Of a DNA stretch of 64,000 nt, positions 53,301-60,143 are shown one piece after another. The notes under the pieces are model-generated. The model searched no databases. It was not told where the DNA came from and saw nothing but the letters and a program-made list of their open reading frames with translations. The translations under genes were made by a program, and so were the position numbers. Each line of letters starts with the position of its first letter. The first letter of the stretch is position 1. Source of the DNA: Polynucleobacter sp. UK-FUSCHL-C3 (GTDB taxonomy: Bacteria; Pseudomonadota; Gammaproteobacteria; Burkholderiales; Burkholderiaceae); assembly GCF_040409815.1 (NCBI RefSeq), contig NZ_CP099959.1, positions 992,001 to 1,056,000 of the forward strand, read 5' to 3'.

Positions 53301-53471
53301 TTATAGCGGCTTTGTACTTGAACCCTTTTTGGATCGACAAGCGTCAGAACAGTACTTAACGCTCTCCCAGTTCTTGGCCCAAGACTTACGCCAGACCATC
53401 TCGCGGCCACATACAGTACAGGTTTTACTGGGCAGATAGGCTTTGTTACCTTTGAATGTGTTTGCAGACAT
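53301..53471 (-). CDS. DUF2256 zinc-finger-like small protein
   Basis: A 56-residue protein from the ATG at 53471. The DUF2256 pattern is complete: LPSKTCTVCGREMVWRKSW then AKNWESVKYCSDACRSKKG. That gives a CxxC...CxxxC zinc knuckle between two Trp-rich basic stretches. Function is unknown. Neighbours in many bacteria include photolyase-related genes, but none is here. It lies between sodC and the left end of the integrated element. Confidence 0.83.
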   Translation of the reverse strand: MSANTFKGNKAYLPSKTCTVCGREMVWRKSWAKNWESVKYCSDACRSKKGSSTKPL

Positions 53472-53830
53472 GACAACAGACTTGACTACGGAGACTTCCA
53501 AAAACAAGACAAACGACGATCAATGCCAGCTGCAAAGTCATGGTAGACCCACTGATTACATATCCATGTGTCTACTACAAAGAATAGGCAAACAAGGATT
53601 ACTACAAAAGAGATTAACCACTTATGGGCAGCGCTCATCTAGCGACTCCGGGAGGAATATTGATGAAGATAAATTGGCGGAGACGAGAGATTCCATTCCG
53701 TAATATCAGGCAGTTTCATACCATTTCATAACTATGTCAATAAGCTTTTAAATATATGGGTTCTTTGACTTATATAAATTCAAGTCATATCATCTAATAT
53801 CACTTTTTTTTGGTACAAAGATGGTACAAA
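53472..53830. other. Gap holding the left attachment site and the integrase upstream region
   Basis: From 53472 to 53672 I see no gene. At 53673-53689 lies the left copy of the 17-base tRNA-end repeat. From 53690 the sequence turns strongly AT-rich up to the integrase start, with a 28-base repeat at 53804-53832 also found near the right end. Confidence 0.6.
53673..53689. repeat. Left attachment-site repeat (attL)
   Basis: ATTGGCGGAGACGAGAG is an exact copy of 60047-60063, the tRNA-Ser 3' end plus 2 bases. The following bases (ATTCCATTCCG here, GATTCGAACCTCCG there) look like a decayed extension of the tRNA T-arm. Confidence 0.85.
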
Positions 53831-53832
53831 AT
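53804..53832. repeat. Sub-terminal repeat, left copy
   Basis: TTTTTTTGGTACA-AAGATGGTACAAAAT is nearly identical to 59981-60009. It has two GGTACA boxes and overlaps the integrase start. Confidence 0.6.
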
Positions 53833-55096
53833 GCCAAGACTTGCTAAGCCACTAACTGCAATCGAGGTTAAACGCCTTTCAAAGAAAGGTTTTCATGCTG
53901 TTGGGACTGTTGCAGGTCTTGGGTTAAGCATCAATCTCAATGGCTCTAAAAGTTGGGTTTTGAGAGCGACCTATGGTGGCTCAAGAAGAAAAATGGGGCT
54001 TGGTGGCTTCCCTGCCACTACCCTTGCACAAGCAACTGAGAAAGCAAGGCAAATCAAATCAGAGATTGAAAAAGGCTTAGACCCGATTCAAACCAAAAAA
54101 ATCAATAAAAGCAAACTAATTTCAGATAGAGCCAAATCTAAGACTTTTGAGGAGTGTGCAAGACTTTTCCTTGATAGCAGAACCTTCCATAACAAAAAGC
54201 ATGCAAAACAATGGGAATCTACTTTAAAGACATATGCATATCCAAATATTGGAAAGCTTATAGTTTCTGATATTGGCATTGAGAGTATAAAAGCCGTTTT
54301 AGACCCTATCTGGAAATCAAAAACAGAAACAGCTTCTAGGCTTCAAGGAAGGATTAAATCCATCATTGACTATGCAATAGTAAGTGGCTATAGAGAAAAA
54401 TCAAACCCAGCAATATGGGATGGTTTTCTCGATTCAATATACCAATCTCCCAAAAAGATTAAAGTCGTAAAGCACATGGATTCAATGCCTTATTCAAAGG
54501 TTTATGAATTTCTGCAGGTATTGAAAAAACATAAAACTATAAGTGCTAAAGCACTTGAATTTCTAATTTTTACAGTTGTTCGCTCAGATTCGGTTCGGTC
54601 AGCCACTTGGTCACAAATAGACCTTAATAAGGGTATCTGGACAATACCAAAGTTATTAACAAAAACTAAAAAGCGAAACCATACTGTTCCCCTCTCTAGC
54701 CATGCAATCACCCTCCTAAATAAGCTGGAACGCTTTGTAGGAACTGATTTACTGTTTCCATCGCCACAACTCAAAAAAATAAGCGACAACACAATTAGTA
54801 AGCTAATGCGTGATATGCGATTTAACAAAGAATTTAAAGGTGAAGGTGTGCCGCATGGCTTTAGGGCAACCTTTAGCACTTGGAGGCTAGAAAGAACAAA
54901 CTATACCCAAGAACTCGGAGAATTAAGTCTAATGCACGAGGTTGGAGATTCTGTATATCAAGCCTACCAAAGAAGTGATGGTCTAGAAAAACGAAGAAAA
55001 ATTATGCAAGACTGGTCAAATTTCATCAATAAGCCCTACCAAGACCTAGAAAAATATAAATCAAAAGTTATATCTCTCAAAAGGAAAGTTGCTTGA
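53831..55096 (+). CDS. P4-type tyrosine-recombinase integrase
   Basis: A 421-residue integrase from the ATG at 53831; the frame opens earlier at a TTG, but MPRLAKPLTAIEVKR is the usual start of the group. The N-terminal DUF4102 arm-binding domain is GTVAGLGLSINLNGSKSWVL and RKMGLGGFPATTLAQA. The catalytic domain has the first Arg in VVRSDSVRSATW, HGFRATFSTW (HxxR box), and the late His/Tyr region LMHEVGDSVYQAYQ with the nucleophilic Tyr. It integrates the element into the tRNA-Ser 3' end. It is adjacent to attL, i.e. distal from the tRNA. It is coupled to the next gene. Confidence 0.93.
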   Translation: MPRLAKPLTAIEVKRLSKKGFHAVGTVAGLGLSINLNGSKSWVLRATYGGSRRKMGLGGFPATTLAQATEKARQIKSEIEKGLDPIQTKKINKSKLISDRAKSKTFEECARLFLDSRTFHNKKHAKQWESTLKTYAYPNIGKLIVSDIGIESIKAVLDPIWKSKTETASRLQGRIKSIIDYAIVSGYREKSNPAIWDGFLDSIYQSPKKIKVVKHMDSMPYSKVYEFLQVLKKHKTISAKALEFLIFTVVRSDSVRSATWSQIDLNKGIWTIPKLLTKTKKRNHTVPLSSHAITLLNKLERFVGTDLLFPSPQLKKISDNTISKLMRDMRFNKEFKGEGVPHGFRATFSTWRLERTNYTQELGELSLMHEVGDSVYQAYQRSDGLEKRRKIMQDWSNFINKPYQDLEKYKSKVISLKRKVA

Positions 55097-55590
55097 TAAA
55101 ACCTAAAAAACCCTCTCCTTTGGCTGATGATGCCACCCTTAATGAATATAAAAAGGCTCAAAGTCATTACATTGAGAAAATGTTTGATACGGTAGTTCGT
55201 GAGTCAAAAGCAAAAACAACTTCAGAGGTTGTGATTTATCTCTGCGAAAAATATCACCCCGATTTCAAAATTAAACAAACAAGGGGGGCAAAAACAAAAT
55301 GGGGTGATTACCTCAAAGCAATGCTTGCAGTCGAGGTGGAATTTAGAAGGAAAGAATCAGGTTCTACAAAAAAAGCAATTCGTGACCTTATAGATGACCC
55401 AATTTGGCAAAGAATGTTCAGTAAAAGCAAAGATTCCGTTGGCTTAGCAAAGGAGATAATAAAAGATGGAAAGAAGGGAATCTACTACAAAATTGCTAGA
55501 TTTGAATACTTAGAAAGTGTAAATAAAGGGTATGCTGTATGGAGCAAAGAGGTAAAAAAGATAATTGATGAAGCATTATTTAGAAAATAA
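55093..55590 (+). CDS. Uncharacterised protein coupled to the integrase
   Basis: A 165-residue basic protein. It begins at TTG (55093-55095), whose bases overlap the integrase TGA (TTGA), with AAAAGGAAAG upstream as ribosome site, so translation by coupling is likely. Content: KPSPLADDATLNEYKKAQSH, TTSEVVIYLCEKYHPDFKIK, then WGDYLKAMLAVEVEFRRK. The pattern is all-helical and charged, with no known motif. Being coupled to an integrase it may be a DNA-binding accessory or directionality factor. That is inference. Confidence 0.65.
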   Translation: MIKPKKPSPLADDATLNEYKKAQSHYIEKMFDTVVRESKAKTTSEVVIYLCEKYHPDFKIKQTRGAKTKWGDYLKAMLAVEVEFRRKESGSTKKAIRDLIDDPIWQRMFSKSKDSVGLAKEIIKDGKKGIYYKIARFEYLESVNKGYAVWSKEVKKIIDEALFRK

Positions 55591-55650
55591 ATTTTCAAAT
55601 AAATTATTTCCTCCTAAGATGATTCTCAGTGCCATTACTGGGAGTATCAA

Positions 55651-55836
55651 TTGGACAATTTTAAGGAAATAGGCTTAATCAGACAGAAACAATTATTACC
55701 TTTAGTAGGTTTTTCTGCACCTACTTTGTGGAGAAAAGTTAAGGCTGGTTCATTTCCGCAGCCAATAAAAATTGGCGAAAAAATGACTGCATGGCGAATG
55801 GAAGAAATTCGCATATGGATGAATGGGCTGAACTAA
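55651..55836 (+). CDS. AlpA-like (excisionase/MerR-type HTH) regulator
   Basis: A 61-residue protein with TTG start (GGGAG about 6 bases upstream). The sequence IGLIRQKQLLPLVGFSAPTLWRKVKAGSFPQPIKIG is the AlpA pattern, ending WRMEEIRIWMNGL. AlpA proteins act as transcription activators of integrase/excision genes in P4-type elements. Its TAA overlaps the next gene's ATG (TAATG). Confidence 0.83.
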   Translation: MDNFKEIGLIRQKQLLPLVGFSAPTLWRKVKAGSFPQPIKIGEKMTAWRMEEIRIWMNGLN

Positions 55837-56267
55837 TGAATCCGACCAAAGAGGATTTTTCAAGATTTTTAGTTGGGCAAGGCTCATTTGATTGGGCTGT
55901 GACAATGAATCTCATGAAACGACACCCAAAATATCAAACCTACATTACTTCTGAAATATTTGAAAAGACTGGTCGCCACTACCTATCTTTGGTAAATAAA
56001 AGACTTTTTAAGCGTCAATACCGATATGGTTATATCAAGCTCAATAGCATTTTTTGCATGGAATATGGGGAGCAAAAACGCCCTCATCTTCACTTTGCAA
56101 TTGGAAGCCCGCCACAAATAAATAAGGATTCTGTACTTACTGAACTTTATAGGTCATATAAATTGATGGACTGGGTCAAGGGTGAAGTTCATATCACCCC
56201 GTATCACAGTCAAGGTTGGATTGATTACATTCTTAAAACAGGTTTTGACAACATTGCACTTCACTAG
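55836..56267 (+). CDS. Short HUH-endonuclease Rep-like protein
   Basis: A 143-residue protein. Three features match single-Tyr HUH replication initiators in order: a motif-1-like strand DWAVTMNL (residues 19-26), the HUH pair HLH in RPHLHFAIG (84-86), and a Tyr with a Lys three residues later in GWIDYILKTG (Tyr131, Lys134). It is close to AlpA, which suits a rolling-circle origin-binding function. It is shorter than most plasmid or phage Rep proteins and has no helicase part, so replication would depend on host proteins. The assignment is by motif only; a Y1 transposase is the other possibility. Confidence 0.6.
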   Translation: MNPTKEDFSRFLVGQGSFDWAVTMNLMKRHPKYQTYITSEIFEKTGRHYLSLVNKRLFKRQYRYGYIKLNSIFCMEYGEQKRPHLHFAIGSPPQINKDSVLTELYRSYKLMDWVKGEVHITPYHSQGWIDYILKTGFDNIALH

Positions 56268-56393
56268 GAGGGCTTAATTGACATGGGCTTGAGGAGTCGT
56301 GTCATGGTGTACAAAAAAGGCTCTATCAGGCTTTAATCCCTTCCCACAACCATCTCCAACACAACTAAGAACTGCACAACAAAAAGACCCGAA
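56268..56393. other. Non-coding gap after the Rep-like gene
   Basis: A TGACA/TGTCA inverted repeat (around 56278-56304) and a tandem AGGCT pair lie in this 126-base gap. It is a possible origin, but no nick site can be shown. Confidence 0.3.
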
Positions 56394-56633
56394 ATGCACA
56401 CAGATACTGAGATTCTTGAAGACTCTACCCCCCGTATAAATCTAGCAACCTCAGATGATATTCGCAGAGAGATGGCTAAGGTTTACCGAGAAACTAGGTT
56501 TAATAAAATCCTACCCAATAACGGCTCAAAGCTCGTTTATATGCTTATCAACATCCTCAAGGCATACGAAGTCACCGAAATAGAAAAACGCCTTGTAGAG
56601 CTTGAAAAAGCCCATTTAAAGGGGGATAAATGA
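56394..56633 (+). CDS. Small phage-like protein
   Basis: A 79-residue acidic helical protein. The run LATSDDIRREMAKVYRETRFNKI followed by KLVYMLINILKAYEVTEIEKRL resembles short hypothetical proteins often found upstream of phage terminase genes. I have no function for it. Its ATGA overlaps the start of the next gene. Confidence 0.6.
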   Translation: MHTDTEILEDSTPRINLATSDDIRREMAKVYRETRFNKILPNNGSKLVYMLINILKAYEVTEIEKRLVELEKAHLKGDK

Positions 56634-56827
56634 CCGCTCTATCCCGCCTTGAAAAGCTGGAGCAAAAGCTACTACCAAAAGTCAAACAGGTACATTTTGT
56701 CGGATGGGCAGATTGCGAATGGAATGAGTGTGATGGCTTAGTCAGACAGCCCAATGAATCTAAAGAGCAGTTCTTTAAGCGAGTAAGGTTAAATAACCCC
56801 GATAGACTAATTTTTTGGTGCGAATAA
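56630..56827 (+). CDS. Small phage-like protein, coupled
   Basis: A 65-residue protein starting in the ATGA overlap of the previous gene: SRLEKLEQKLLPKVKQVHFVGWADCEW then NPDRLIFWCE. It resembles small proteins of phages and satellites by pattern; no function known. One Cys in WADCEW and one near the C-terminus. Confidence 0.6.
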   Translation: MTALSRLEKLEQKLLPKVKQVHFVGWADCEWNECDGLVRQPNESKEQFFKRVRLNNPDRLIFWCE

Positions 56828-56832
56828 AAAAT

Positions 56833-57789
56833 TTAATTACTAAATTTTTTTAGAGTTGCTGAGGATGAATCATAAAAAGCCTTTAACACTTCTTCTTCTT
56901 TTCTTATTAAATCACCAAGTTTTCTCATGTAAGAGTTATATTTATTTACATCAGCATCTTGATTAAAAATAAACTGCTTTTGTTTTGAATCAAAAATCAC
57001 ACTATTGTTTAAAAATAATGGTTGTAGAAAGTTACATAACTCAACTAAAAAAGTACCAACAGATTTTTCAACTGCAACATACTCTTCAAACAGGGAGTCT
57101 ACTTTCTTAAAAGACACATCAAATGATGAAATTTCTTTTGGAAAATCTGAAGCAATTAAATAGAAAGTTTCTTTATATTTTTGCCTGAAGTCACTCACCT
57201 CTTTGTTGTATTGACCCATGAAAATAATAAAATTCTCAGCTTTTTTTCGTCTTACATTAATTTTTTCAATGGTAGAAAATGAATCAATGTCAAAAACTAA
57301 ATTCTCGTTAAGAGACTTTTCTAGCTTTATTTTTTGAATGTCCATAAAAGCATAGTAGATTTTGACTAGCTTTACAGCTTGACTTATATAGTCTTCATAA
57401 CTTTTAGCCTTTTTAAAAATTGATAAATCAATTTTTTCATTTGAGGGTTTATCAGATTTGTACGGCTCATCCAATAAAGTTGCTCTTAGTTCATTTTGAT
57501 TTTCTTGAAGTAAAGACTTTATTTCTGATAAGTTAGATTTGATTGAATAATCTTTATATAAAAAGAAAAGTGAGATGCATAGGGTTATTAAGGCAGAAAC
57601 TAAGAAAAACTTATACTTTTCGATGTCGGTTCTATTTTTGGAAAGGAAATATGCAATTCCCCAAGACCAAATGCTATATCCAAAAACTCTGCCAACATTT
57701 TCAGCACCATTTGTAGTGACAGCAGAAATAATAAAAGCCGCAAGAACAATGACATAATTAAATTTTATTGCTACAAGTTTCTGAATCAT
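56833..57789 (-). CDS. Unknown membrane protein with large soluble domain (cargo operon, gene 3)
   Basis: A 318-residue protein. Three hydrophobic stretches near the N-terminus (VIVLAAFIISAVTT; FGYSIWSWGIAYFL; FLVSALITLCISLFFLYKDY) are followed by about 235 cytosolic, charged, mostly helical residues (KSLLQENQNELRATLL; KAKSYEDYISQAVKLVKIYYAF). I recognise no domain. It is coupled to the gene upstream through a 4-base ATGA overlap at 57786-57789, so the two proteins are likely partners. AT-rich base composition suggests foreign origin. Confidence 0.6.
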   Translation of the reverse strand: MIQKLVAIKFNYVIVLAAFIISAVTTNGAENVGRVFGYSIWSWGIAYFLSKNRTDIEKYKFFLVSALITLCISLFFLYKDYSIKSNLSEIKSLLQENQNELRATLLDEPYKSDKPSNEKIDLSIFKKAKSYEDYISQAVKLVKIYYAFMDIQKIKLEKSLNENLVFDIDSFSTIEKINVRRKKAENFIIFMGQYNKEVSDFRQKYKETFYLIASDFPKEISSFDVSFKKVDSLFEEYVAVEKSVGTFLVELCNFLQPLFLNNSVIFDSKQKQFIFNQDADVNKYNSYMRKLGDLIRKEEEVLKAFYDSSSATLKKFSN

Positions 57790-58430
57790 TTCTTAAATCC
57801 TTTGTATATCCACCCTATAGCAAATCCAAAAGCATACAAACCTGTTATAACTAAAAGATAATAAAAAATTACTAAGAATGAACCTTTAATAAATTCAAAT
57901 AATGAGTCATATTTTTTAGTTTCAGCCGAAGATAAGTCATTTTTTATGTTTGTTAATCGAGTTGATGCCTCATCGCACTTTCTCTTTTTAACAAGAACAG
58001 GGTTATTTAAATTATTTCTTTGCTCCCTTAATGACACTATTTCTCGTTCATTTTGAATAACCTTTCTTTTTGTTTCAGGGTAGTACCAATAGATTGATGT
58101 TTTTAATTTTTCGTTTTCATCAGATAAAGCTACCATTCTTTTTTCTATAGATTGTCTTTTTGCTGAGGTTTCCAATAATGCTTCTGTTGCATATTTTTCA
58201 TTTAATTTACAATCAACCTCAATTTCACTCCATCTAGTCTTGGCATCTATTAAATTTTCATTAATTTTATTTACATTACTTATTCCATAAAATGGATTTG
58301 GCATAACCAAATACCAAACTATTAATGTAGGAATAAGAATAAGTATTGAAACTACAATCCAAATTCTTTGCCAACCATTAAAATTTTGAATTTCAGTCTT
58401 TGGATTTTTTAGAAAATTTTTAATATTCAT
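57786..58430 (-). CDS. Unknown two-helix membrane/coiled-coil protein (cargo operon, gene 2)
   Basis: A 214-residue protein. TM1 (IWIVVSILILIPTLIVWYLV) is followed by about 120 residues of charged coiled coil (EALLETSAKRQSIEKRMVAL; ENEKLKTSIYWYYPETKRKV; EIVSLREQRNNLNNP). TM2 (FIKGSFLVIFYYLLVITGLY) lies near the end. Both ends are probably cytosolic and the coiled coil periplasmic, or the reverse. Coupled at both ends to neighbours by 4-base overlaps. Confidence 0.6.
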   Translation of the reverse strand: MNIKNFLKNPKTEIQNFNGWQRIWIVVSILILIPTLIVWYLVMPNPFYGISNVNKINENLIDAKTRWSEIEVDCKLNEKYATEALLETSAKRQSIEKRMVALSDENEKLKTSIYWYYPETKRKVIQNEREIVSLREQRNNLNNPVLVKKRKCDEASTRLTNIKNDLSSAETKKYDSLFEFIKGSFLVIFYYLLVITGLYAFGFAIGWIYKGFKK

Positions 58431-58627
58431 TTCTTAGGCATCCTTCCGCCAGCTTTTAAACATTCGTCCAAAGTCTTATAAGGCGTAAACTTTTTGGTCT
58501 GCTCATAGTATGTCGTACTTGGAGCATGGCAGATACCAGAATTGCTCATTTTTACGGGTTTTTCCTGAGCCAATACCCCAGTAGATACGAGCAATACGGC
58601 AAGGAATGAGAAAGTTTTGCTTTTCAT
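58427..58627 (-). CDS. Small secreted two-Cys protein (cargo operon, gene 1)
   Basis: A 66-residue exported protein from the ATG at 58627. The signal peptide (FSFLAVLLVSTGVLAQ) is followed by MSNSGICHAPSTTYYEQTKKFTPY and LDECLKAGGRMPKK. The GICH...YYxxTKxFxxY...CLxxGGRxPK pattern is a short conserved module seen alone and next to nuclease-like proteins, without known function. Two Cys could form a disulfide. First gene of the leftward three-gene operon; ATGA overlap with the next. Confidence 0.65.
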   Translation of the reverse strand: MKSKTFSFLAVLLVSTGVLAQEKPVKMSNSGICHAPSTTYYEQTKKFTPYKTLDECLKAGGRMPKK

Positions 58628-58665
58628 AAGCATTAGGCTAACATATGCTGATAGGGGAAAAACTT

Positions 58666-59397
58666 ATGAAATTACTTAGCTTGCTTTTGTTAGGAACAAT
58701 CTCCTTAGTGGGTTGTGCAAACAAGCCTTTTCTTTCACAGGCTCAAGTACAGGAAGTGGCGATTACCAACCAATACAACGATGCTCTATTTTTCGCCAAT
58801 CAATGTATCGACAAATATAAAGATAATCCCGACTTCGTGACTACATACGAGGAAATTAGTGTCAGAGGATTAAATGCATCAAACAGAACTGAACTAATGT
58901 CATCCAATAAAAAACTATCAAGCAATCAAAAAAGAGTTTTTCAAAACTTTATTAAATTGCGTGATGAGTGCTCACAAGGTGTATTGAGTCGTTTAAACAG
59001 CAGCCCCTTTTACAGCCTATTTCAAAGTAAAGATACTTCACAGGGAATTATTGAGGCTAGCTTGATTGGCGACAAAATTACAATTGGTGACTTTAATGTT
59101 AAAAAAATTGAAATAATTCAAAAACTTTCAAATGATGTGGCAGTTCTTCAGCGAAATTTATCCATTCAATTTGGTCAACAACACGCTGCTGAGTGGGCGG
59201 CAGAATCGAATAGACGAGCTACCTCTGCAGCAATATGGGCAGGCGGTATGCAGGGCATGGCTAATAGTTTTGGCAATACAGCCCAGTACTTTCAAAATCA
59301 AAATCAGCAACTAATGCAGCAAAACCAGTATCGTGCACCCATAAATACAAATTGCCAACCAAATGGTGTTGGTGGATTTAATTGCACTTCAAGATAA
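58666..59397 (+). CDS. Unknown lipoprotein with Asn/Gln-rich tail
   Basis: A 243-residue lipoprotein from the ATG at 58666 (AGGGG ribosome site). The lipobox is SLVGC. The middle is helical (SSNKKLSSNQKRVFQNFIKL; KIEIIQKLSNDVAVLQRNLS). The last 50 residues are rich in Asn/Gln (NTAQYFQNQNQQLMQQNQYR), ending NTNCQPNGVGGFNCTSR with two Cys. It is divergent from the cargo operon, so the promoters share the 38-base space between them. A surface-exposure or exclusion role is a guess. Confidence 0.65.
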   Translation: MKLLSLLLLGTISLVGCANKPFLSQAQVQEVAITNQYNDALFFANQCIDKYKDNPDFVTTYEEISVRGLNASNRTELMSSNKKLSSNQKRVFQNFIKLRDECSQGVLSRLNSSPFYSLFQSKDTSQGIIEASLIGDKITIGDFNVKKIEIIQKLSNDVAVLQRNLSIQFGQQHAAEWAAESNRRATSAAIWAGGMQGMANSFGNTAQYFQNQNQQLMQQNQYRAPINTNCQPNGVGGFNCTSR

Positions 59398-59422
59398 TGC
59401 TAGATTCTGCTAGACTAGATAC

Positions 59423-59536
59423 ACATCAAGAGTTTGGCTGTCGCCAACACCAACCTGCAGGCTTTAGTAAGGTGGTAAATCGATGAGGCTCTAGGGCAAT
59501 CATTAAGCGACAACCCGCCTTTTGGTGGGTTTTTTG
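59423..59536 (+). ncRNA. Candidate structured RNA of the element, about 115 nt
   Basis: A stretch without open frame between the lipoprotein and HTH genes. A possible promoter (TTCAAG at 59388, 17 bases, TAGACT at 59411) would start it near 59423. Hairpin TTGGC/GCCAA (loop TGTC, 59434-59447), then ACC-a-ACCT / AGGTGGT (59449-59476), then a terminator. The GCGACAACC at 59507-59515 can pair with GGCTGTCGC at 59436-59444 (one mismatch), giving an alternative to the first hairpin. Its place beside an HTH gene resembles satellite immunity RNAs in outline only. Confidence 0.5.
59512..59536 (+). terminator. Intrinsic terminator
   Basis: The stem AACCCGCC / GGTGGGTT (one G.T) with a TTTT loop is followed by TTTTTT. 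Confidence 0.85.
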
Positions 59537-59606
59537 TTTTATGGGGGATTTATTCCAACTTCGCCAACCCAAGCACCTTGCTAAATTGGCTAAATCGGAG
59601 AGTGAT

Positions 59607-59936
59607 ATGAACTACCTTCAAATTAAGAAGTGGCGGAATCAAATAGAAATTAGCCAAGCAAAGGCTGCCGAACTTCTTGGAGTAGATTTAAATACCTACA
59701 TCAGCTGGGAATCAGGCGAACAGCCAATTAGCCAGTCTGTTGCCAATGCCTGCTCTAACCTCAATACTCGCTATTCAGGTACAGGCGGACAACACAAACT
59801 TCTAATCGCTAATATTGATAAATACAAGAGGGCATACAAAGTCTATTTTGGGAATGAACCAACAGGTAAACATTTAGTTCCCGCAGAGTGGCTTACAAGC
59901 GGATTTAAGGCGATAGATTTCAGCCCAGCTCTATGA
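59607..59936 (+). CDS. HTH (Xre-like) protein of the element
   Basis: A 109-residue protein from the ATG at 59607 (GAGAGTGAT upstream); a longer frame from 59541 starts inside the terminator region. The HTH reads ISQAKAAELLGVDLNTYISWESG (cro/CI-like helix pair), with a C-terminal part (YKRAYKVYFGNEPTGKHLVPAEWLTSG) of unknown fold. It probably controls element genes or the adjacent RNA. It is the last gene before the right attachment site. Confidence 0.72.
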   Translation: MNYLQIKKWRNQIEISQAKAAELLGVDLNTYISWESGEQPISQSVANACSNLNTRYSGTGGQHKLLIANIDKYKRAYKVYFGNEPTGKHLVPAEWLTSGFKAIDFSPAL

Positions 59937-59980
59937 ATCGCTAATTGCTGTTCTTAGAAAGTAACAGGTTCAAACTAGTC

Positions 59981-60009
59981 TTTTTTAGGTACACAAGATG
60001 GTACAAAAT
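59981..60009. repeat. Sub-terminal repeat, right copy
   Basis: TTTTTTaGGTACacAAGATGGTACAAAAT is the near copy of 53804-53832, ending 38 bases from the right attachment repeat. Confidence 0.6.
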
Positions 60010-60046
60010 TTAAAAAATAGATATAAGTGATTGATTTATATGGGAT

Positions 60047-60063
60047 ATTGGCGGAGACGAGAG
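60047..60063. repeat. Right attachment-site repeat (attR)
   Basis: ATTGGCGGAGACGAGAG is identical to 53673-53689 and includes the CCA end of the tRNA-Ser gene. Confidence 0.85.
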
Positions 60064-60143
60064 GATTCGAACCTCCGATCCATGTTTTAGCACAGATGCT
60101 CCCTTAGCAGGGGAGTGCCTTCGACCAGCTCGGCCACGTCTCC
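60049..60143 (-). tRNA. tRNA-Ser (anticodon GCU)
   Basis: The reverse strand reads GGAGACGTGGCCGAGCTGGT, a long extra arm typical of serine tRNA, and the anticodon loop CCCCTGCTAAGGG with anticodon GCT. The T arm is GGTTCGAATCC, and the gene ends CGTCTCCGCCA with an encoded CCA. The acceptor arms pair GGAGACG/CGTCTCC. Its 3' end is the integration target of the element to the left. Confidence 0.96.

Follow-up and report, generated by a model that had tools for sequence, protein, structure and literature searches.

A 6.4-kb integrative element at tRNA-Ser(GCU) of Polynucleobacter, possibly a minimal phage satellite

Boundaries and gene content of the element

The freshwater bacterium Polynucleobacter sp. 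UK-FUSCHL-C3 has a single-contig genome of 1.90 Mb, and we analyzed a 64-kb stretch of it (here called the window) that carries an AT-rich block at the 3' end of tRNA-Ser(GCU). An original prediction had described this block as a small satellite-like element bounded by exact 17-base direct repeats. Both the repeats and the target gene were verified: the right repeat coincides with the 3' end of the tRNA gene, and the pair is the sole exact 17-mer present twice in the window. The predicted AT richness was likewise borne out, as the 6,357 bp between the repeats have a G+C content of 35.5%, versus 47.7% for the remaining window, and same-length stretches elsewhere in the window, taken in 100-base steps, never fell below 45.4%. 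The boundaries and the core genes are as follows.

53673–53689: left repeat, the distal copy of the tRNA 3' end; exact 17-bp match to 60047–60063
53834–55096, plus strand: int, P4-type tyrosine integrase of 420 amino acids (Pfam PF22022, PF13356, and PF00589; Arm-DNA-bind_3, Phage_int_M, and Phage_integrase)
55093–55590, plus strand: orf165, overlapping int by 4 nt (open reading frame [ORF] coordinates); positional counterpart of the int-overlapping gene of phage-inducible chromosomal minimalist islands (PICMIs)
55651–55836, plus strand: alpA, 61 amino acids (PF05930, E value 3.2e-10)
55791–56267, plus strand: rep, HUH replication initiator of up to 158 amino acids (PF23343, the ORF2/G2P HUH family REP_ORF2-G2P, E value 7.7e-7)
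56394–56633, plus strand: orf79, member of a small-element gene family without a name; relatives of 80 to 81% identity in genomes G134 and G130
56630–56827, plus strand: orf65, partner of orf79; relatives of 41 to 44% identity behind orf79 in G134, G130, and G014
60047–60063: right repeat, inside the 3' end of tRNA-Ser(GCU)
60049–60143, minus strand: tRNA-Ser(GCU), anticodon GCT, the target gene (ARAGORN; Rfam tRNA)

From left to right, int, orf165, alpA, rep, orf79, and orf65 are followed by three minus-strand cargo genes, orf250, a SAM-I/IV (S-adenosylmethionine) riboswitch with a terminator-like site, a helix-turn-helix (HTH) gene, and the tRNA gene. Pfam backed the predicted P4-type integrase, AlpA, HUH-like protein, and HTH protein. 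As had also been predicted, capsid, tail, terminase (the large subunit included), and relaxase families gave no convincing match when ten ORFs of the element were compared with Pfam and PHROGs; a "virion structural" PHROGs match of the cargo gene orf318 had an E value of 0.32. The same searches matched no relaxase, coupling-protein, or type IV secretion system family (an oriT alone was not searched for) and no Zot-type ATPase or coat gene of the kind that marks inoviruses, the filamentous phages. The block, which is present as a single copy in its own genome, thus combines an integrase with a direct repeat of the tRNA 3' end, as tRNA-integrated genomic islands do.

Related elements and sites without the element

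Bounded relatives occupy the same tRNA gene in three other Polynucleobacter species: G134 (14-bp repeat, 7,720 bp from the tRNA end), G150 (15 bp, 5,698 bp), and G029 (16 bp, 4,013 bp). In the same-tRNA elements the distal repeat lies 121 to 144 bp from the int start. A further one, in G009, is split across two contigs, and G083 carries at tRNA-Ser an int-alpA element with primase-like genes (assigned by eye) and a 16-bp repeat at 9,390 bp. The G134 integrase is 73% identical to that of the window, and int, orf165, alpA, rep, orf79, and orf65 are all open in the window and conserved in G134. G150 and G029, which were found via the integrase (40 of 151 genus genomes match at 1e-60, the best ten being taken as loci), keep int, an orf165-like gene, and alpA, with rep replaced by an unrelated winged-helix-like protein (by eye; no Pfam match above the cutoff). 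Cargo varies between elements. Among the matches listed in a literature search, no publication dealt with such elements in Polynucleobacter.

We also compared 22 tRNA-Ser loci, a nonrandom sample of Rep carriers and near relatives in which two loci (L071 and L077) reach less than 1 kb beyond the tRNA. By tblastn with the window proteins, the element family was at the site in two of the 22 (G134 and G009). In G125, G063, G104, and G121 (L073 to L076) the element is absent: a hydrolase-like gene (by eye) stands next to the tRNA, and beyond it lies the zinc-finger gene that borders the element in the window. This absence holds at the gene level, because the stretch of about 215 bp that separates the left repeat from the conserved flank (53458 to 53672) lacks an equivalent in these relatives; it may be left over from an earlier insertion. 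In G128 the site is occupied by about 6.9 kb of other DNA. The sole genome of the same species, G069 (59% complete), is uninformative as an empty site, because the 12 kb queried found in it only one match, of 113 bases at 72%. Taken together, the bounded elements in other species and the four relatives without one agree with the predicted mobile unit, and that the block is a mobile element is near certain.

At the integrase end, orf165 has relatives of 30 to 37% identity behind int in G134, G150, G029, and G009 and no convincing family match in Pfam, PHROGs, or NCBIfam. The 4-nt overlap of int with the gene behind it recurs in G134, G009, G130, G014, and G067; in G133 the overlap is 1 nt, in G080 the two genes adjoin, and in G150 and G029 a gap of about 20 nt separates them. 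Two repeat pairs lie near the element ends.

53812–53832, plus strand: paired GGTACA repeats (at 53812 and 53823) directly upstream of the int ATG; candidate arm-type sites of the integrase
59988–60009, plus strand: second GGTACA pair (at 59988 and 60000), 40 to 60 bp inside the tRNA end; candidate arm-type sites

Since the integrase has an arm-binding domain, these pairs look like its arm-type sites. GGTATA or GGTACA pairs were also seen by eye at the ends of the G029, G150, G134, and G009 elements.

The Rep family and the hairpin after rep

Rep scored 29.8 bits for PF23343, just over the 27.8-bit cutoff, and nine Rep homologues share without exception the histidines of HxH and the tyrosine and lysine of YxxK. 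It had no match among 72,556 plasmid records, and a PDB profile search gave no meaningful match. Against 50,697 phage records, tblastn returned partial matches over 35% of the query (best E value, 2e-3); among the matches listed (20 of 67 rows), these came from phages of about 155 kb of Salmonella and other enterobacteria, with no filamentous phage among them.

Within the genus, Rep homologues occur in 15 of the 151 genomes at an E value of ≤0.001, its own included; some are distant, and that of G047 (31 residues, with internal stops) is doubtful. Four Rep elements, in G130, G014, G080, and G017 (4.0, 4.0, 4.8, and 4.5 kb, respectively), lie at tRNA-Asn between repeats of 48 to 49 bp and have a different integrase, despite which G130 and G014 keep the rep-orf79-orf65 block. 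Some relatives are damaged: the integrase ORF is broken in G017, and orf79 is shortened in G014. In G065 the Rep element occupies the 3' end of moaC, part of which is duplicated. Distant homologues near tRNA-Ser(UGA) and tRNA-Lys are accompanied by repeats of 14 and 45 (or 27 plus 17) bp, and no bounding repeat was found for one near tRNA-Leu. A distant Rep group at L026 to L029 lies near tRNA-Leu or tRNA-Lys (no tRNA was found in L029); in the parts read, three of these four loci hold two integrase-like genes, along with a DUF6641-type protein (L027: Pfam, 9e-10; PHROGs, 4e-18).

Directly behind rep lies a hairpin.

56279–56304, plus strand: hairpin directly 3' of rep; candidate double-strand origin

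In an alignment of eight elements (the window and L017 to L023), 91.7% of the hairpin cells can pair, and sliding the partners by 1 to 3 columns lowered pairing to ≤52%. Three of the six pairs change on both sides, in nine cells, a number that none of 500 shuffles reached; the covariation score was reached by one shuffle in 500. We then scanned for the hairpin under strict rules that were designed after sight of these sequences, an earlier and looser scan having been dropped when it was positive in 909 of 2,544 control windows. In 8 of the 14 Rep loci (the window, L017, L018, L020 to L023, and L025) the strict scan detected the hairpin behind rep, against a background of 91 matches in all over 2.03 million strand-bases, in which some loci are represented twice. 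It missed L019 by one mismatch and found no hairpin after rep in L024 or L026 to L029, none in the more distant L105 to L109, and none in the G150 and G029 elements. Rolling-circle replication of the element is likely, and the hairpin is a candidate for its double-strand origin, although it may act as an RNA instead.

The orf79/orf65 pair

The two small genes at 56394 to 56827 had been predicted to be phage-like, a description that our searches contradict: neither has a Pfam match or a PHROGs family below an E value of 0.1, and four relatives of orf79 (the window's own copy was not among the queries) had no match in the 50,697 phage records. One orf79 relative likewise had no match in the 72,556 plasmid records. 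An orf79 profile matched 9 of 299 genomes of the bacterial family (its own included), 30 GTDB-contig loci, and 5 IMG/VR contigs; when the window copy was used by itself as the query, no IMG/VR match resulted. Six residues are invariant in 34 members.

Among 22 listed of the 30 GTDB loci, 14 have an integrase-like ORF upstream of orf79 (by eye, with ≤4.8 kb upstream shown). At L091 the order is int, a gene in the AlpA position (no Pfam match), a CHC2 zinc-finger protein (below the cutoff), a DUF3987 protein, and orf79; at L095 it is int, AlpA, an AAA_25 protein, and orf79. The orf79 family is common to small elements with unrelated replication genes. In the IMG/VR contigs, orf79 stands behind a long tape-measure-like ORF (by eye; two that were tested had no Pfam match), and L163 has a confirmed DnaB, as L164 has an HK97-gp10-like protein. 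L160 to L164 and L149 share DnaB-like, tape-measure-like, and orf79-family genes (by eye, with Pfam on some), and L160 and L149 show apparent chromosomal genes beyond that stretch (by eye); these loci are possibly small elements with a tail-length gene of their own.

We rejected orf79 as a known small terminase: Pfam, PHROGs, NCBIfam, and PDB sequences all failed to support it, and a PADLOC match to NDT_II-A (2.8e-4) was too weak. In other elements, small genes resembling terminase small subunits (TerS) by eye lie behind rep (L020, 10242–10556; L021, 9307–9612; L025, 3167–3541; L024, 11551–11985); their Pfam matches are all subthreshold, and the L024 gene matches an uncharacterized PHROGs family at 5e-6. 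Because of the constancy of orf79, our best guess is that the orf79/orf65 pair provides the link to a helper phage.

The SAM-I/IV riboswitch and the HTH regulator

At the right end of the element, an RNA feature precedes the HTH gene.

59418–59513, plus strand: SAM-I/IV riboswitch aptamer (RF01725; 57.1 bits versus a gathering threshold of 41.1; E value 9.5e-8; model positions 1 to 99 of 99)
59512–59531, plus strand: terminator-like hairpin followed by a T run, beginning at the last bases of the aptamer
59607–59936, plus strand: HTH regulator of 109 amino acids from the ATG at 59607 (HTH_3, 4.7e-8)

The predicted "HTH/RNA module" thus stands as to the HTH gene, and its RNA part is now specified as a SAM-I/IV aptamer with a terminator-like site. 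Such terminator-like sites are common by chance (6 found versus 4.4 expected). An aptamer with a terminator is usually read as attenuation, in which the gene is off once SAM is bound, and the riboswitch is predicted to sense SAM ahead of the HTH gene.

SAM-I/IV matches occur in 24 of the 151 genus genomes, at 26 places (L166 to L191). The ORFs read downstream of them are mostly small and uncharacterized, and none resembles a methionine gene (by eye, with Pfam on five); some of these small genes recur, e.g., one for a 120-amino-acid protein starting MRDYTYL (by eye). In G073, a protein downstream of the riboswitch is related to the window HTH protein (36% identity over 99 residues, 2e-18). Literature searches found no publication on a SAM riboswitch in a phage satellite, and in the available text of PMC7567579 the leaders of genes of PLE satellites are merely suggested as possible riboswitches. 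A regulator led by a riboswitch is possibly a new feature.

Cargo genes

Between orf65 and the riboswitch lie four cargo genes.

56833–57789, minus strand: orf318, membrane-protein-like (by eye); no convincing family in Pfam, PHROGs, NCBIfam, or PADLOC
57786–58430, minus strand: orf214, membrane and coiled-coil-like (by eye); weak matches, the best to PADLOC PD-Lambda-1 (3.3e-5)
58427–58633, minus strand: orf68, small secreted-protein-like (by eye); a 60% identical relative in the G134 element
58645–59397, plus strand: orf250, lipoprotein-like (by eye); no convincing family in the four collections searched with orf318

No relative of orf318 was present among the fetched loci. Identification of the cargo as a known defense system was rejected, the PADLOC matches being weak. 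A relative of orf68 lies in G014 (L190, 2147–2353) beside another SAM-I/IV riboswitch (by eye), and the G134 cargo includes a macro-domain-like protein (L017, 6037–6537; by eye).

Proposed life cycle and alternative explanations

Our preferred explanation, held with a confidence barely above even, is that the block is a small and apparently intact integrative element of Polynucleobacter that behaves as a minimal phage satellite would, copied by a rolling circle and packaged by a tailed phage. Int, helped by AlpA and perhaps by the orf165 product, would recombine the 17-bp repeat at the end of tRNA-Ser(GCU) for both insertion and present-day excision. Rep, as an HUH protein, would then start rolling-circle copying of the excised circle, probably at the hairpin after rep, and the resulting concatemers could be packaged headful by headful by a tailed helper phage. 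The HTH regulator, encoded behind the SAM-I/IV riboswitch, probably influences whether the element stays or leaves. The predicted satellite-like character is supported by the layout and by the absence of recognized structural or conjugation genes; from these we infer dependence on a helper phage, and the chance that the element is a phage satellite at all is about even or a little better.

Several observations weigh against this explanation. Neither a particle nor a circle nor a helper phage was observed. TerL PF03354 and portal PF04860 are both unmatched in the host genome, and therefore no resident helper prophage was detected by these two families. No sequence links orf79 to a terminase or a solved structure (Pfam, PHROGs, NCBIfam, and PDB sequences), and Rep pattern scans of IMG/VR gave no relative. 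As for the hairpin, two of five measures fall within the shuffles (pairs with double change, 118/500; further pair types, 492/500), and the 135-nt region around it folds no better than shuffles (z, +1.63).

The best-placed alternative, which we nonetheless consider improbable, is a domesticated or stalled genomic island, now immobile and kept for its cargo. The lack of a recognized transfer gene (Pfam and PHROGs), the single copy, the differing cargo, and the damage in G017 and G014 would all suit such an island, but the six genes from int to orf65 are open here and conserved in G134, and elsewhere the rep-orf79-orf65 block is combined with another integrase and another target. Ranking next, and unlikely in our judgment, is an integrative mobilizable element that leaves by conjugation, either with the HUH protein as a relaxase-like enzyme or with an oriT for a helper relaxase, int and AlpA merely excising it. 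HUH enzymes also act as relaxases, and no phage gene was recognized in the element; however, the Pfam family of Rep is the phage and plasmid replication family REP_ORF2-G2P rather than a relaxase family, neither relaxase nor coupling-protein families were matched, and Rep is absent from the plasmid records.

We give still less credence to a satellite of a single-stranded DNA (filamentous) phage, in which the ORF2/G2P-type Rep would make single-stranded circles coated by that phage. Its Pfam family is named after replication proteins of the single-stranded DNA phage type, and satellites of this kind exist, e.g., pDolos (available text of PMC11389934). On the other hand, the int-alpA plan and the orf79 family belong to primase/DnaB cassettes, unsuited to a single-stranded DNA life, and the partial Rep matches listed include no filamentous phage. 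Finally, we rejected tRNA duplication without mobility as the source of the repeats (the second copy is the tRNA 3' end only, beside int in four elements), a conserved chromosomal region (in L073 to L076 a different gene separates the tRNA from the flanking zinc-finger gene), and an integrated plasmid (Rep is unmatched in the plasmid records).

A bolder version of the phage satellite explanation is doubtful: a new freshwater line of tailed-phage satellites, with HUH rolling-circle concatemers and headful packaging, that would sense SAM as a trigger via the riboswitch-led regulator, e.g., the loss of SAM when an infecting phage brings a SAM-degrading enzyme.

If the element is a phage satellite, a primase would be dispensable in the minimal phage-hijacking kit, an HUH protein of 140 to 160 residues being enough, and the replication gene would be exchangeable while int and alpA stay. 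The orf79 family would offer a way to detect small elements of Beta- and Gammaproteobacteria that escape a model built on int, alpA, and prim, and with a SAM riboswitch ahead of a regulator, the sensing of a metabolite by a small mobile element could be tested directly. The same-tRNA elements, down to about 4.0 kb, are good material on the smallest workable satellite.

Comparison with known systems

P4-like satellites share with the window element the integrase type, a tRNA target, and an AlpA/Vis-like regulator, but no alpha-type primase-helicase or capsid-remodeling gene was recognized here. Gram-negative phage-inducible chromosomal islands (PICIs; available text of PMC6092414) likewise have int and alpA, AlpA being an activator in them, whereas no pri-rep, TerS, or capsid-remodeling gene was recognized among the ten ORFs in Pfam or PHROGs. 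The int-AlpA-primase/helicase cassettes of Burkholderiaceae (L091, L092, and L095) also have the orf79 family behind their replication genes, which encode a CHC2 zinc finger plus DUF3987 protein or an AAA_25 protein in contrast to the HUH Rep.

The likeness is broadest to PICMIs, as far as they are described in the available text of PMC10803314. There, PICMI115 comprises int, an int-overlapping gene on which excision depends, alpA, which serves as the trigger, and a primase gene required for efficient replication; its concatemers are packaged without identified packaging genes, and the PICMI helpers are virulent phages. The window element shares the order int, int-overlapping gene (4 nt), alpA, and replication gene, as well as the neighboring placement of int and alpA within a small island, the accessory genes at the opposite end, and the lack of known packaging genes. 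Its 6.4 kb compares with a PICMI average of 6.7 kb, so that the element is not small for satellites of this sort, contrary to the original prediction. Two features set it apart: prim is mandatory in the published PICMI model, and no primase family was found among the ten ORFs (Pfam and PHROGs), with an HUH Rep instead; and fis is the integration hallmark of PICMIs, whereas the window element lies at tRNA-Ser(GCU). For these two reasons we do not file it as a PICMI. It further differs in its host (Polynucleobacter versus Vibrionaceae), in orf79/orf65, and in the SAM-I/IV riboswitch with the HTH gene. The suggestion of an undescribed family is accordingly weakened by the PICMI-type layout and upheld by the differing replication gene, target, host, and companion orf79. 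The window element may work like a PICMI.

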